The notes under the pieces are model-generated. The model searched no databases and was not told the origin of the DNA. It was given only the letters and a program-made list of their open reading frames with translations. From a virus: a DNA stretch of 31,904 nt. The translations under genes were made by a program, and so were the position numbers. How positions within the stretch are numbered: the stretch's first letter is position 1; each line of letters starts with the position of its first letter. The stretch spans positions 1 to 31,904 of IMG/VR virus record IMGVR_UViG_3300021962_000394; one strand, given 5' to 3'. Positions 8,626 through 20,868 of this stretch are shown one piece after another.

Positions 8626-9822
8626 TTACTTAGCCTCCTTAGAAATGGAGAGAGGGGACTTCCAGGCATTCTGCAGCTTTTCCATGTAGGAAGAAGGTGC
8701 GGAAGCAGGGGTGGCAATGGAAGCCACGGCCTTACGCAGATCCTCGGTGGAATCAGCGCGACCGGCAGCGTCTTCAGAGATGGTGTCGAACATTGCTTGG
8801 ACGTAATCGTCGGAACGCTCGTCCAGAGCAACAGAATCACCGCGAACTGCCTTGATGGCATCCACCATCACCTCGCGGGCGCTCTTACCGCTGAATTCAT
8901 AGGCAGAATCCAGCACAGGCTTGGCCTTGGAAATCAGAGCCAGACGATCTTCAACGATGGAATCAACGTTGATTTGCTTGGCTTCTTCCAGTTCAGCCTT
9001 CAGGGAGTCAACTTGCTCGGCCAGAGCATCGGCCCGCCCTTCAGCGGAATCCATTTTGCCCTTCATTTCCTCAGCCATGGCGTCCATTTCGGACTTCATG
9101 GAATCAGCGGCGGCCTGCAGCTCGTCGTACTTCTTCTTCATGTCCTCGTAGGACATCTTGGCGTCTTCTCGTTCTTTGGTGATCGCCAGAGCAACGCTCT
9201 CGCTCACCTCAAACTCAGCGCCGTCAAAATTGACTTTTGCGCTCATGGTTTGGTTTTCCTCAATGGAAATTAGAGATGGATCAGCGGCATCTAGACGATC
9301 CAAATGCAACCTCACCTGCGGGCCAGCTCGGCCTCGACGAACGATAGCGACGTGATTACCACTGATCTCCTTTTGGATGCCGTCGTAATGCTCACCGCTA
9401 TCGGTAACGCCAGGCGTCGGATCATAATTGACCCTATAGCCAGCGCTCACTTCACGAACATCGCCGCGCATCACCTTATCAATGGTTTCGCGGTCAGTCA
9501 CGGTCATGACGGCTTTAACAAAGCCATTGTCATAAACAATTTCTGAGCCAGTGAAACCGATTTGGTAATCCTTGGTGTTCTCACTGTCCAAAAGAACAGG
9601 AGGATGTTCCATCGTGATTGCCTTCCCCGCAAATGAGGCAAGGCTTTCTGGAGACGCCACTTCAGTTTCAGGACGGAATTCCTTCCTGATGGAACCGTCA
9701 GCATCTGTGTAATGCTGAATGCCAGTACGAGCAATTGAAGCCCACACCCGAAGATAACCCTCAGGTGTCATTTCATACTTCTCAATAGGAGAAACGTCGT
9801 ACCGACAAGATGTGGTGCTCAT
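8626..9822 (-). CDS. Prohead protease (DUF2213-like) fused to scaffold-like coiled coil
   Basis: An ATG at 9822 opens 398 residues. The N-terminal 170 residues fit the DUF2213 prohead protease family. H73 (MEHPP), S126 (REVSAGYR) and H157 (GNHVAIV) are the likely catalytic set of this Ser-His protease. Residues about 209-290 form a strongly charged coiled coil (DMKKKYDELQAAADSMKSEM), typical of scaffolding domains, and a C-terminal tail follows. An internal in-frame ATG at residue 193 (position 9246, GAGGA upstream) could start a separate scaffold protein, as in lambda C/Nu3. The adjacent cement and capsid genes support the role. Confidence 0.85.
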   Translation of the reverse strand: MSTTSCRYDVSPIEKYEMTPEGYLRVWASIARTGIQHYTDADGSIRKEFRPETEVASPESLASFAGKAITMEHPPVLLDSENTKDYQIGFTGSEIVYDNGFVKAVMTVTDRETIDKVMRGDVREVSAGYRVNYDPTPGVTDSGEHYDGIQKEISGNHVAIVRRGRAGPQVRLHLDRLDAADPSLISIEENQTMSAKVNFDGAEFEVSESVALAITKEREDAKMSYEDMKKKYDELQAAADSMKSEMDAMAEEMKGKMDSAEGRADALAEQVDSLKAELEEAKQINVDSIVEDRLALISKAKPVLDSAYEFSGKSAREVMVDAIKAVRGDSVALDERSDDYVQAMFDTISEDAAGRADSTEDLRKAVASIATPASAPSSYMEKLQNAWKSPLSISKEAK

Positions 9823-9882: not shown

Positions 9883-10173
9883 ATGACGCAAAGAAGGCTG
9901 ACGGCCCGTAAAGTAAAAAGCCCGCAAAGCTCCCTCTCGGAAGCCAAAATTCTCATTGGTTCCCGAGTGCGGGAAGCTCGCCTTAGCTGCGGACTTTCGC
10001 AGCGAGCCCTTGCAGAAATTCTCTATTGCGATCAAGCAACAATATCTCGCATTGAAACAGGTATTCTTTCTCCAGATATCGCCCAAATCAAAGTGATGAG
10101 CGGCGTGTTTCAACTCAGCGTGCTTTGGCTAATGGGCTACCCATCATTCGTTGTCCACGCCACGCAAGATTAA
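9883..10173 (+). CDS. XRE/Cro-family helix-turn-helix regulator
   Basis: An ATG at 9883 opens 96 residues. The helix-turn-helix spans about residues 25-80: GSRVREARLSCGLSQRALAE, then YCDQATISRIETGILSPDIA, then a third-to-fifth helix LWLMGYPS. This is the classic XRE/Cro fold with the conserved Q..IS.IE.G core. It is the only plus-strand gene inside the minus-strand head operon and ends tail-to-tail with the next gene (3-nt overlap through TTAA). It may repress its own promoter or the head operon downstream; that is inference. Confidence 0.85.
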   Translation: MTQRRLTARKVKSPQSSLSEAKILIGSRVREARLSCGLSQRALAEILYCDQATISRIETGILSPDIAQIKVMSGVFQLSVLWLMGYPSFVVHATQD

Positions 10174-10486: not shown

Positions 10487-10879
10487 CTACTTTGAACGGT
10501 TTTCCAACATCTTAAGCGTGCGATTTGCCCACGCTCTCCCCGCATCGCCTCCCCATAGTTGCCAGGCGATATAACCAGCATCATCTTCGCCGCCGCTCTT
10601 GTTCTTTTCGTGGCGCAAAAAGAACGCAACCATGCGCCGCAAGGTAGCCTCGCTCACCTTCATGCCATTGGCCAAGCTCGTGGCCCTCGCCACACCACTG
10701 CCAATTCCTTGCTTCCCAGCCTCGCCCGTCGTCAGTCCGCCTTTGCCATGCTTTCGGCGTAGCTCAAGGCCACGTCGTGCAGCATTCCTTACCGCCTGAG
10801 GAGGGGCGAAGCCTTCAGCGTCGCCCCTCAGTTCTTTTTTTTCTTCAAAGACGAAAGGTAGCCACGGCAGCGAGCCTCA
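10487..10879 (-). CDS. Phage domain with LWGGDAG motif, reached by -1 frameshift
   Basis: This frame is open from about 10879 to the stop at 10487 but has no ATG before its conserved part; a GTG at 10693 would cut that part off. The complete domain reads FAPPQAVRNAARRGLELR, then GIGSGVARATSLANGMKVSE, then MVAFFLRHEKNK, then AGYIAWQLWGGDAG. It is a recurrent phage domain of unknown function, often a C-terminal module of structural-region proteins. It is in the -1 frame of the DUF6496-like gene and is joined to it by the A AAA AAG signal at 10840-10834. Confidence 0.65.
10801..10842 (-). other. Candidate -1 frameshift signal: A AAA AAG plus stem-loop
   Basis: On the minus strand the zero frame reads TTG AAG AAA AAA AAG AAC TGA, containing A AAA AAG at 10840-10834, the heptamer used by E. 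coli dnaX. Four bases later comes a 9-bp stem, GAGGGGCGA (10829-10821) with TCGCCCCTC (10809-10801), and an 11-nt loop. A -1 slip bypasses the stop at 10828 and enters the frame ending at 10487. No T run follows the stem, so a terminator is unlikely. Confidence 0.75.
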
Positions 10880-11139
10880 GCAGCATTCGCATCCATCTCC
10901 TCCTCTTCTCCTTCCTCTTCTTCCATGCCCTCTTTGCTCATCGAGCCACACATGGTGTCGATGTAGGCGTCCCAATATGCATCGCTCTTGTCTTTTTTCG
11001 TCATGCCAGCTTCGCTCATCGCAATGGCGATGGCTTGCTGACGATTCTTTACGGGCTTGCCGTCGCTGCCCTTAAGAGTGCCAGCCTTAAATTCACGCAT
11101 CACCTTACGAACTTTCGCCTGTTTTTGTTTCGCGGTCAT
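10828..11139 (-). CDS. DUF6496-like small protein (zero-frame product)
   Basis: An ATG at 11139 overlaps the methyltransferase stop by 4 nt (ATGA). The first 50 residues match the DUF6496 pattern: KVRKVMREFKAGTLKGSDGK, then QAIAIAMSEAGMTKK. A very acidic linker follows (MEEEEGEEEEMDANAAEA), then a lysine-rich end SSLKKKKN at the slippery site. DUF6496 proteins are common in phages and have no known biochemical function. The zero-frame protein has 103 residues; a -1 product would append the LWGGDAG domain. Confidence 0.75.
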   Translation of the reverse strand: MTAKQKQAKVRKVMREFKAGTLKGSDGKPVKNRQQAIAIAMSEAGMTKKDKSDAYWDAYIDTMCGSMSKEGMEEEEGEEEEMDANAAEARCRGYLSSLKKKKN

Positions 11140-14121: not shown

Positions 14122-14784
14122 CTACACGGGACTTGTCGGCACCGCGTTGCGTTTGTATTCAACAGAACACCGACACCTTGCGCGACACTCACAACGCTGC
14201 CCCGGCATTGGCAGGCTCCCCATCGCAACAAGACCAGCTCTTGCGTAACGCAAGCAGTCATCACAATGCTTTGCCTGTGGGTCCAAAATGCGCCGCATTA
14301 GGGAATATCCCTGCTTGCCTTGGCGAAGACTGGCACCTTCCCAGTAAGAACTTCGCACGCTTTCAGCATATAGCTGCACACGAGCAAGAGCCATGGCAGG
14401 AGAAACGCGGCCAGCCAAAATATCGCTAGCAAAGCTCTGAAGGTAAGTGTATTCCGCACGAAGCCTCTGACCGATGCGGCCATACTCTGCACTGCCCATA
14501 CCATCCTTGCCACCATGCCCAAGCACTGTTGCCTGAATATGAGCAGCCTTAATTGCCTCGCGGACACTCCCTTGCCATTGGTCAATTGTGATGTTGCCAT
14601 CGGCCAGCATCTGCGTGAATCGCCGTAGATTCTGACCGAGTTTGTCGATGCGACCATCCACAAGCGCCATCACGGCCTTTTGGCTCATGAACTGCCCAGA
14701 GGGGCGCCTATAGCGCCCCAAGTTGGCGTCATACGCCCACTCCGCGTCAAAACGCGGCCACGGATCACTCAGTGGGCTCAACAT
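14122..14784 (-). CDS. MuF-like minor head protein
   Basis: An ATG at 14784 overlaps the portal stop by 20 nt and opens 220 residues. The C-terminus carries a Cys/His cluster, AKHCDDCLRYARAGLV then MPGQRCECRARCRCSVEY, the zinc-like signature of MuF/SPP1 gp7-type minor head proteins. The preceding helices (YTYLQSFASDILAGRVSPAM) also fit. It follows the portal gene, the typical place. Such proteins enter the prohead with the portal. Confidence 0.82.
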   Translation of the reverse strand: MLSPLSDPWPRFDAEWAYDANLGRYRRPSGQFMSQKAVMALVDGRIDKLGQNLRRFTQMLADGNITIDQWQGSVREAIKAAHIQATVLGHGGKDGMGSAEYGRIGQRLRAEYTYLQSFASDILAGRVSPAMALARVQLYAESVRSSYWEGASLRQGKQGYSLMRRILDPQAKHCDDCLRYARAGLVAMGSLPMPGQRCECRARCRCSVEYKRNAVPTSPV

Positions 14785-16867
14785 TGCCAGCCTCCAGAAT
14801 GTCCTTAAAGCGATCAGGCGCTTCTTCTTTCCACTGGTTCAAAGCTGCGTCAATGTCAGCTTGTGTCACGAGAGAAGCTTCGTCAATGTCGCCCAGGATG
14901 AGACCTTCTGCCTTGAGCGGTTCAATGGCATCAGTTTTACTGCTCACCATCTTGGCTGGACCACGACGCTCAGGATTGGGATCGGCCTTGCGTTTGCGGG
15001 CAACGATGCGCTGCCGCTCTTCCTTCGACATCCCCTGCGCCTTTGCCTGGGGCAGGCACTTTGGCTTGCCCTCACCCTGCTCGCGAGCGCCACATGGCCC
15101 CATGATTTCACCATTGGCACCAATCCTCACCCACTTTTCCTTGAACCATTTATCAAGATCATCGGCATGAAGCTCTTCGCCGTCGCCTTTGAAGGCGCCG
15201 CTCAGAGAGCCATGCTTCTCCTTGTACATTTGCTTGTATTTCTGCACGACATAACCACTGGCGTAGGCAGAAGGCCACACCTTGAACTTGGACTTGGCAG
15301 CGCTAACGGCTCGTGAATGCAGAGTTTTGTCGGTGAATGTCACGTCGCCACGCACCTTCTCTAGATCGCGAGACATGTAAAGGCCCGCTTCATCCATCGT
15401 CTCTTCCGCTGCGCTTTCCGAAGCTTCTCGCGTACCATCCATGGGCAGACTGCCGTTCTGCTGATCCAACGGATCGCGACCACCCGGAGGAACGGCCATC
15501 TTGCCGTCGCCAGGCTTCTGCGGCATTTCCCGCTTGATCGATGGATCAATGGTGGTTTCAATGCTGTATTCGCTCTTTCCGAACCGCGAATCTGCCACTT
15601 CCTGCGGCGTAAGCACACCCACTTGGATGTAACGAGCATCAACTGCAGCCACACGCGCACGCACGTCTGCCAGCTCGCGCTCGTTCATTTCAAACAGAGG
15701 CTTAAAGCTCACGCGCCAGTTATCAGGCACTTTCCCTCCCGTAGGACCACTCTTGCTCAGCATGATGTATTCCATCAGCTTCGTCAGAGGCTTGCGGAAG
15801 TGCGTCTCTTGGTAGTGATGGCAAGTCTTTGCGAAGTCACGCTCTTCACTGCGGCCCGTAGCACCCAGGCCAGACGGCGACTGACCGAATAGCAATGTAT
15901 GGGGAATGCCGGCAGCGGCAATCACATCAATCCGCAGCTTCTCCAGGATTTCACTCACGCCACCAAACTGCCGGCTAACAAAGGCCAGCTCTTCCTTCTC
16001 TGCATCAATCGCGTAGCCGCGATAGATGCTCTTGCTCATGTCGTTCAGTTGCAGGCGATCCCTTACTTGCCCTTCCTTGCCGGCGGCCAACATTGAAGCT
16101 AGCCCCCTCACCTTATGCACAAAGATGTCAAATTCAGTGAGCAGGGTGGCAATGGAGGCAGTGCCGCTGTAGTAGTGCTTGAAGCTGTCATAGACGCTCT
16201 GCAGCACGCTCATACCCCAGCCATAGTTCTTCTGCCGCGTGCGATACGGAAGCCAGATGCCGTCAAACCGCAGAATGCGATCCTTGTGGATGGCACGAAG
16301 ATTGGGCTGCTGAATTAGATCGCCGGAAATAATCTGGTAATAAGTTGCTTTGGAATAGTCATACAGGCTGTCTTCGCTGATGATCGGTGCAATCTGGTGC
16401 CGATCCAAACAGTCCATGCCTTCCACGGCACGAATATTGTTCTTATCGACGGGCATGTCAGACGGACGCCCATCGTCGATATAGAGCAACAACGCACTGC
16501 CGCCATACAGGCGTGAAGTTTTAGCCGCCTCGTTAAAGCCAGGCAGAATTTCCAGGTCTTCAATAGCTTGCTCAACACCAGAAAGCGTTTCAGCGTTCAC
16601 GCCCTCCCCGCCAAACAAAATCTCAAATCCCTCGCGGGTGCATTCATCCGCAACAATGTCGACAATACGACGCATGAGCCAATGCGCATAAAGACCCTCA
16701 AGGTCTTCATGCCCCATGAAGGACACCGGTTTAACAGTGGTCCTGGTGGTCTTATCACGGCTCGTGCCCATCCCGGTGAACACATTTTGCAGGCCATCAG
16801 CACGGATGCCACCTGCTGTGGCATGGCCGAGTGACACCATATCCCCACCTTGTGTAACGTCAGCCAT
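14765..16867 (-). CDS. Portal protein (DUF1073-like) with C-terminal extension
   Basis: Start chosen at the ATG at 16867 (MADVTQGGDMVSLG), with AGGA about 12 nt upstream; a TTG at 16891 is less likely. It has 700 residues. Residues about 20-450 fit the DUF1073/phage portal family (AHWLMRRIVDIVADECTREG, IPHTLLFGQSPSGLGATGRS). The portal forms the dodecameric DNA gate. The extension beyond residue 450 is unusual: residues 491-509 resemble the capsid N-terminal arm, 528-550 read FKVWPSAYASGYVVQKYK, and about 579-630 (WVRIGANGEIMGPCGAR, KCLPQAKAQGMSKEERQR) resemble a DUF5872-type small phage domain normally found separately. Confidence 0.88.
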   Translation of the reverse strand: MADVTQGGDMVSLGHATAGGIRADGLQNVFTGMGTSRDKTTRTTVKPVSFMGHEDLEGLYAHWLMRRIVDIVADECTREGFEILFGGEGVNAETLSGVEQAIEDLEILPGFNEAAKTSRLYGGSALLLYIDDGRPSDMPVDKNNIRAVEGMDCLDRHQIAPIISEDSLYDYSKATYYQIISGDLIQQPNLRAIHKDRILRFDGIWLPYRTRQKNYGWGMSVLQSVYDSFKHYYSGTASIATLLTEFDIFVHKVRGLASMLAAGKEGQVRDRLQLNDMSKSIYRGYAIDAEKEELAFVSRQFGGVSEILEKLRIDVIAAAGIPHTLLFGQSPSGLGATGRSEERDFAKTCHHYQETHFRKPLTKLMEYIMLSKSGPTGGKVPDNWRVSFKPLFEMNERELADVRARVAAVDARYIQVGVLTPQEVADSRFGKSEYSIETTIDPSIKREMPQKPGDGKMAVPPGGRDPLDQQNGSLPMDGTREASESAAEETMDEAGLYMSRDLEKVRGDVTFTDKTLHSRAVSAAKSKFKVWPSAYASGYVVQKYKQMYKEKHGSLSGAFKGDGEELHADDLDKWFKEKWVRIGANGEIMGPCGAREQGEGKPKCLPQAKAQGMSKEERQRIVARKRKADPNPERRGPAKMVSSKTDAIEPLKAEGLILGDIDEASLVTQADIDAALNQWKEEAPDRFKDILEAGNVEPTE

Positions 16868-16938
16868 GCATAAGGAATCCTGATATTGCAATCATTCTAG
16901 AACTGGGTACATTGTCGTGTACTGAAACATTCCTCAAC
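16868..16938. promoter_or_regulatory. Divergent promoter region between portal and terminase operons
   Basis: The 71-nt gap separates the minus-strand virion operon from the plus-strand terminase operon, so both may be promoted here. It contains an inverted repeat GTACA (16907-16911) and TGTAC (16918-16922) with a 6-nt spacer, an operator-like dyad, and TAGAAT on the minus strand. No convincing -35 was found. Confidence 0.4.
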
Positions 16939-20800: not shown

Positions 20801-20868
20801 GGGGACTGCTGGGAATCGAACCCAGTATTCCATGCTATTTGCATGGCGTGTGCCAACACCTCAGATCC
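20801..20868 (-). tRNA. tRNA-like cloverleaf, atypical or degenerate
   Basis: Read on the minus strand, 68 nt fold like a tRNA. The T arm CTGGG TTCGATT CCCAG is perfect. The 32-38 loop CAAATAG sits on the 5-bp stem CCATG/CATGG. The D-arm stem GTGT/ACAC holds a loop of only 4 nt. The acceptor GGATCTG/CAGTCCC has two mismatches. Position 33 is A instead of U and no CCA is encoded. The literal anticodon reading is AAT, but with these defects it may be a decayed tRNA, a tRNA-like RNA, or a leftover attachment sequence. Confidence 0.35.

Follow-up and report, generated by a model that had tools for sequence, protein, structure and literature searches.

We examined the junction between two reading frames in a 31,904-nt stretch of a cyanophage-like virus (IMGVR_UViG_3300021962_000394 of IMG/VR, positions 1-31,904), referred to here as the window. 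The gene pair is flanked by a methyltransferase gene on one side and the prohead protease gene on the other (Table 1). The product of the upstream, zero-frame ORF comprises a DUF6496 domain followed by an acidic linker and a Lys-rich end, and in Pfam it matched PF20106 (DUF6496) above the gathering cut-off (E 2.6e-9; 37.8 bits against a cut-off of 24). Its orthologue in Synechococcus phage S-CBS4 is gp018, with 79% identity. The LWGGDAG domain lies in the −1 frame, which after a slip reads GAA CTG AGG GGC GAC ..., encodes ELRGDAEGFAPPQAVRNAARRGLELRRKHGKGG...GYIAWQLWGGDAGRAW... and closes with TAG (10489-10487, minus strand). This part had been described in an initial annotation as a known phage domain, and we found that it matched PHROG 2859 (E 1.4e-15; function label unknown) and no Pfam family in the Pfam search. 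The first ATG, GTG or TTG codon of the −1 frame in the window is the GTG at 10693, well within the domain. A fusion of both parts would have 217 aa and 23.8 kDa, and not the approximately 21 kDa given by the initial annotation.

Table 1. Features of the DUF6496-LWGGDAG junction and the neighbouring protease gene, in positions of the window.
Feature	Position	Strand	Remarks
Prohead protease gene (DUF2213)	8626..9822	minus	PF09979, E 5e-44; downstream of the gene pair
−1 frame, LWGGDAG domain	10487..10834	minus	ELRGDAEGFAPP... from heptamer to TAG; C-terminal part of the predicted 217-aa fusion
Putative stimulatory hairpin	10801..10829	minus	arms 10829-10821 and 10809-10801, loop 10820-10810
Zero-frame stop TGA	10828..10830	minus	second codon past the heptamer, after AAC
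Zero-frame DUF6496 gene	10828..11139	minus	103-aa short product; ORF translation
Slippery heptamer A AAA AAG	10834..10840	minus	zero-frame phase, inside the A8 run
A8 run	10835..10842	minus	contains the heptamer

The 3' end of the DUF6496 gene reads ...TTG AAG AAA AAA AAG AAC TGA. After a spacer of 4 nt, GAGGGGCGA (10829-10821) pairs with TCGCCCCTC (10809-10801) on the minus strand in a 9-bp stem that encloses an 11-nt loop. The heptamer 4 nt before a GC-rich stem, the stop two codons on and a downstream domain lacking a start had all been reported by the initial annotation, and all are present in the window. The 53-nt stretch with the hairpin had a minimum free energy of −22.4 kcal/mol, and with an energy z of only −1.8 against shuffles the window signal taken alone could be chance. 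The Rfam search returned no match to a frameshift element and only two snoRNA scores at chance level.

We collected relatives from IMG/VR protein scans, taking the best 80 of 372 and the best 80 of 449, and added further loci by a DNA-pattern scan for the stop and the stem, with the heptamer left out of the pattern. Among the relatives collected, at least 132 distinct sequences, which were gathered by similarity and are thus related to each other rather than independent samples, had the LWGGDAG domain in the −1 frame of the upstream DUF6496 gene. All 132 carried an in-frame heptamer at the same position: 90 were A_AAA_AAG, 35 were G_GGA_AAG and 7 were C_CCA_AAG, with no other heptamer among them. 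The comparative signal is not chance, judging from an in-frame X_XXA_AAG at one position in 132 of 132 sequences. When all 64 −1 motifs were measured in E. coli by Sharma et al. (PMC4066793), C_CCA_AAG, G_GGA_AAG and A_AAA_AAG were the most efficient with stimulators, a ranking that comes from E. coli and not from cyanobacteria. The zero-frame stop was TGA in 79 relatives and TAA in 47, in both cases 3 nt past the heptamer, and TAG directly after it in the remaining 6. The stem began 5 nt past the heptamer in all 132, so that the conserved geometry is an 8-bp stem at 5 nt, with a ninth G-C pair only where the stop is TGA. A Shine-Dalgarno-like string was found upstream in 47 of the 132, a count confounded by Glu-rich codons, and we detected no consistent pattern of such a stimulator in these sequences.

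On a tree of the domain DNA downstream of the stem, in which many deep branches are weakly supported, the heptamer switched at least 11 times among its three forms and the state, shifted or single-frame, changed at least 9 times. Loci found with the DNA pattern were left out of this tree and of the stem count, because the pattern imposes the stem. Median pN/pS in the LWGGDAG frame was 0.106 over 1123 pairs of relatives, against 1.9 and 2.4 in the other frames; by this measure the frame is under purifying selection. The cultured isolate S-CBS4 carries the same element, annotated as two hypothetical genes, gp018 and gp019. The GenBank start of gp019 (L082, 9345-9653; HQ698895, 13217-13525) is a GTG within the conserved domain, and the two-gene annotation is probably wrong.

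In the 64 distinct junctions recovered by the protein search alone, which give a stem count free of the pattern's bias, 97.5% of the cells of the eight stem pairs were paired. Stems slid by 1-3 columns paired in only 54-68% of cells in a 40-sequence set, in which the covariation score was 0.183 against 0.095 for shuffled alignments, with 0 of 500 shuffles reaching 0.183. The main covarying pair was C-G, A-U or U-G, where a synonymous Gly codon change is coupled with Ala to Ser; in the second, a change of G-C to A-U replaces Gly by Asp and Ala by Val. Part of the stem conservation is explained by protein constraint, to judge from the conserved R-G-D...F-A/S-P-P codons, and relatives that encode both domains in one frame therefore provide a fair control.

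At least 29 distinct relatives among those collected had DUF6496 and LWGGDAG in a single frame, the two domains following each other as in the fusion (e.g. L035, L036, L051, L079 and L109). The heptamer was absent from all of them except L108. In these relatives 77% of the stem pairs formed, and the full stem was present in 2 out of 25; mean stem dG was −6.1 kcal/mol, against −15.8 kcal/mol in the shifted sequences. The Arg codon was AGG in 89 out of 89 shifted relatives and in 10 out of 25 single-frame ones. By this comparison, the hairpin is decayed in the single-frame relatives, which need no signal. Since the single-frame forms are distinct sequences and lack the heptamer, apart from L108, they are best read as an alternative gene arrangement and not as corrected sequencing errors. 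The comparison of homologous loci thus bears out the dnaX-like −1 frameshift that the initial annotation proposed, with both heptamer and stem conserved. The same annotation had held that single-frame relatives would argue against the shift; such relatives were indeed found, yet they are sequences in their own right and, L108 apart, have no heptamer.

L108 (1501-2148) is a single-frame gene in which the stem is complete and seven A stand in a row; one A separates it from the shifted form, and it may reflect a homopolymer error or a fusion of very recent origin. L095 and L147 have near-identical LWGGDAG domains, the one in a single frame and the other behind G_GGA_AAG; this points to exchange of the gene's 5' half by recombination.

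We weighed four other explanations of the junction. The A8 run of the window could hide a sequencing or assembly indel in what is really a one-frame gene, and homopolymer indels do occur in these data: L006 lacks one A that L005 has, L254 resembles a similar loss, and L108 carries an extra A relative to junctions that are otherwise similar, while its stem is intact. Yet the −1 arrangement is common to 132 distinct sequences, 42 of which have merely a 3-A run (GGGAAAG or CCCAAAG), it is present in the isolate genome of S-CBS4, and the stem is retained only where a shift is needed. We consider an indel extremely unlikely, and for the family as a whole these comparisons have already refuted it. 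The separate listing of gp018 and gp019 in GenBank, the latter from a GTG, together with 28 sporadic ATG, GTG or TTG codons in the −1 frame near the junction, would suit a pair of genes in which LWGGDAG has its own start, either a GTG at the Val codon or a rare start used by coupled re-initiation. There is, however, no conserved start: 91 of the 132 relatives lack any −1-frame start ahead of the Arg codon, and the Val codon, which sits within the conserved protein, is a GTG in no more than 40 of the 132. A separate start would also leave the invariant slippery heptamer unexplained, and 29 relatives encode one fused protein; we find this reading highly unlikely.

Slippage might instead take place during transcription, with an extra A in the mRNA yielding the fusion. 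The A8 of the window is long enough for this, and A7 or A8 is present in 16 of the 90 A-type sequences, but the other 74 A-type sites are A6, and the runs of G_GGA_AAG and C_CCA_AAG comprise only three bases, with the same phase and the same stem. The conserved hairpin at 5-nt spacing fits ribosomes. Transcriptional slippage does not account for the G- and C-type heptamers, and we judge it very unlikely as the source of the fusion, though it may add to a ribosomal shift at the A8 of the window. Finally, as single-frame forms are present among close relatives, the downstream domain could be the remnant of a fixed frameshift mutation in a decayed split gene. The low pN/pS of the LWGGDAG frame speaks against this, as does the recurrent and precise conservation of heptamer, stop and stem, and in the shifted lineages the −1 frame showed neither relaxed selection nor stops; we give decay practically no credence.

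The DUF6496-LWGGDAG junction is thus very probably a conserved −1 programmed ribosomal frameshift that gives an extended product with an accessory domain. The features that define such a shift are found together here, namely the phase of the heptamer, the structure downstream of it and a −1 frame that is under selection and has no start of its own, and from these we infer that the slippage is ribosomal. Most ribosomes on the DUF6496 gene would terminate at the TGA, TAA or TAG that lies 0-3 nt past the heptamer, giving a protein of about 100 aa. Some would stall at the hairpin that starts about 5 nt downstream of the heptamer, both tRNAs would move back by one base on X_XXA_AAG, and the shifted ribosomes would continue through the LWGGDAG domain to a fusion of about 217 aa. 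Because the motifs are of the top rank and the hairpin is GC-rich, the predicted shift rate is probably well above 1%.

We compared the junction with known systems. It has in common with E. coli dnaX the A AAA AAG heptamer, a GC-rich hairpin a few nt downstream and a stop close behind. The dnaX shift shortens the protein, whereas the DUF6496 shift adds a domain, and the DUF6496 relatives are without a consistent Shine-Dalgarno-like stimulator. The tail-assembly chaperone G/GT frameshift (Xu, Hendrix and Duda 2004, as cited in PMC10885494) is likewise a phage −1 shift that gives a short and an extended form, and G_GGA_AAG is also used in that class (PMC5009743). The DUF6496 pair differs from it in its genes, in its position, which is in the head cluster and not between the genes for the major tail protein and the tape measure, where G/GT lies, and in the conserved hairpin after the site. 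Elsewhere in the window, an A AAA AAA heptamer (3721-3715, minus) stands in zero-frame phase within a 181-aa ORF (4218-3673), and the next ORF (3598-3248) is open in the −1 frame; the position and order of these two ORFs suggest that they are the G/GT pair. This site is the other frameshift candidate to which the word "second" in the initial annotation points.

Frameshifting is also known in the capsid genes of phages A2 and T3, and C-terminal Ig-like extensions are put on phage structural proteins in this way (PMC5009743). As in these cases, the DUF6496 shift would give a fraction of the protein molecules an accessory domain at the C-terminus, and in both systems other phages carry the fusion without a shift. 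Here, though, the added LWGGDAG domain is predicted to be all-helical rather than Ig-like, and the N-terminal part is DUF6496, not a major capsid or tail protein. The single-frame DUF6496-LWGGDAG proteins have the same domains in the same order; their one frame can give only the fusion, and their stem is decayed.

The AlphaFold model of the LWGGDAG domain is all-helical (mean pLDDT 85), and in BFVD it matched prohead proteases, XkdF and portals with TM of 0.7-0.9; entry A0A6J7WW40 is a 183-aa match to the domain. Sequence-profile and fold searches of the PDB gave no significant match, and therefore no biochemical function could be read from structure; the matches to lambda cI were weak (E about 0.9 or worse, TM about 0.3) and were rejected. 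A pattern search for the domain in bacterial and archaeal genomes gave 272 matches, and no relative was among them.

The genes that follow the prohead protease encode the cement (PF22758) and major capsid (PF09950) proteins, and the S-CBS4 counterpart of the protease gene is annotated as head maturation protease. The LWGGDAG domain was also found in prohead proteases (Halogranum tailed virus 1), capsid-maturation proteases, protease-capsid polyproteins (Roseobacter CRP phages, S-CBS1) and portals (Halorubrum viruses), and in Vibrio phages a protein whose gene lies a short way upstream of the capsid gene begins with it. Pseudomonas phage PaBG is an exception, with the domain among DNA-metabolism genes. 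From gene position and domain company, our best guess is that LWGGDAG is a head-associated accessory domain put on part of the DUF6496 population.

Three further features of the window were recorded. The portal gene (14765-16891, minus, PF06381) ends in a DUF5872 domain (residues 520-630), a small accessory domain in the same head cluster. A helix-turn-helix-like regulator ORF (9883-10173) lies on the plus strand within the head cluster, in the place occupied in S-CBS4 by the transcriptional regulator gp021. ARAGORN called a 68-nt tRNA-Ile (20801-20868, minus) with anticodon AAT, which is unusual for bacteria; this call is probably spurious.

The mechanism of −1 programmed frameshifting is already known, and the gene pair appears undescribed in the open-access papers searched. 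Within that literature, as distinct from subscription journals, we found no description of a frameshift for DUF6496-LWGGDAG, and nothing relevant on DUF6496, on S-CBS4 with frameshifting or on programmed frameshifts in cyanophages; the statement of the initial annotation that none had been described is not contradicted. The junction enlarges the set of recoded genes in aquatic phages by a well-supported family, found in the isolate S-CBS4 and in metagenome contigs, whose members automatic annotation splits into two hypothetical genes. Natural series of this kind are rare: the three top E. coli slippery motifs swap in place, and the lost need for slippage accompanies the loss of the hairpin, which makes the family well suited to testing frameshift rules beyond E. 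coli. It further suggests that phages use frameshifting to add not just Ig-like domains but a second kind of accessory domain to part of a protein population. More tentatively, the shift might fix a ratio of short to long DUF6496 that is important for head building or maturation, with lineages alternating between a tuned mixture and the fusion only. This is possible though doubtful; if true, the need for the short DUF6496 form could be read from evolution.
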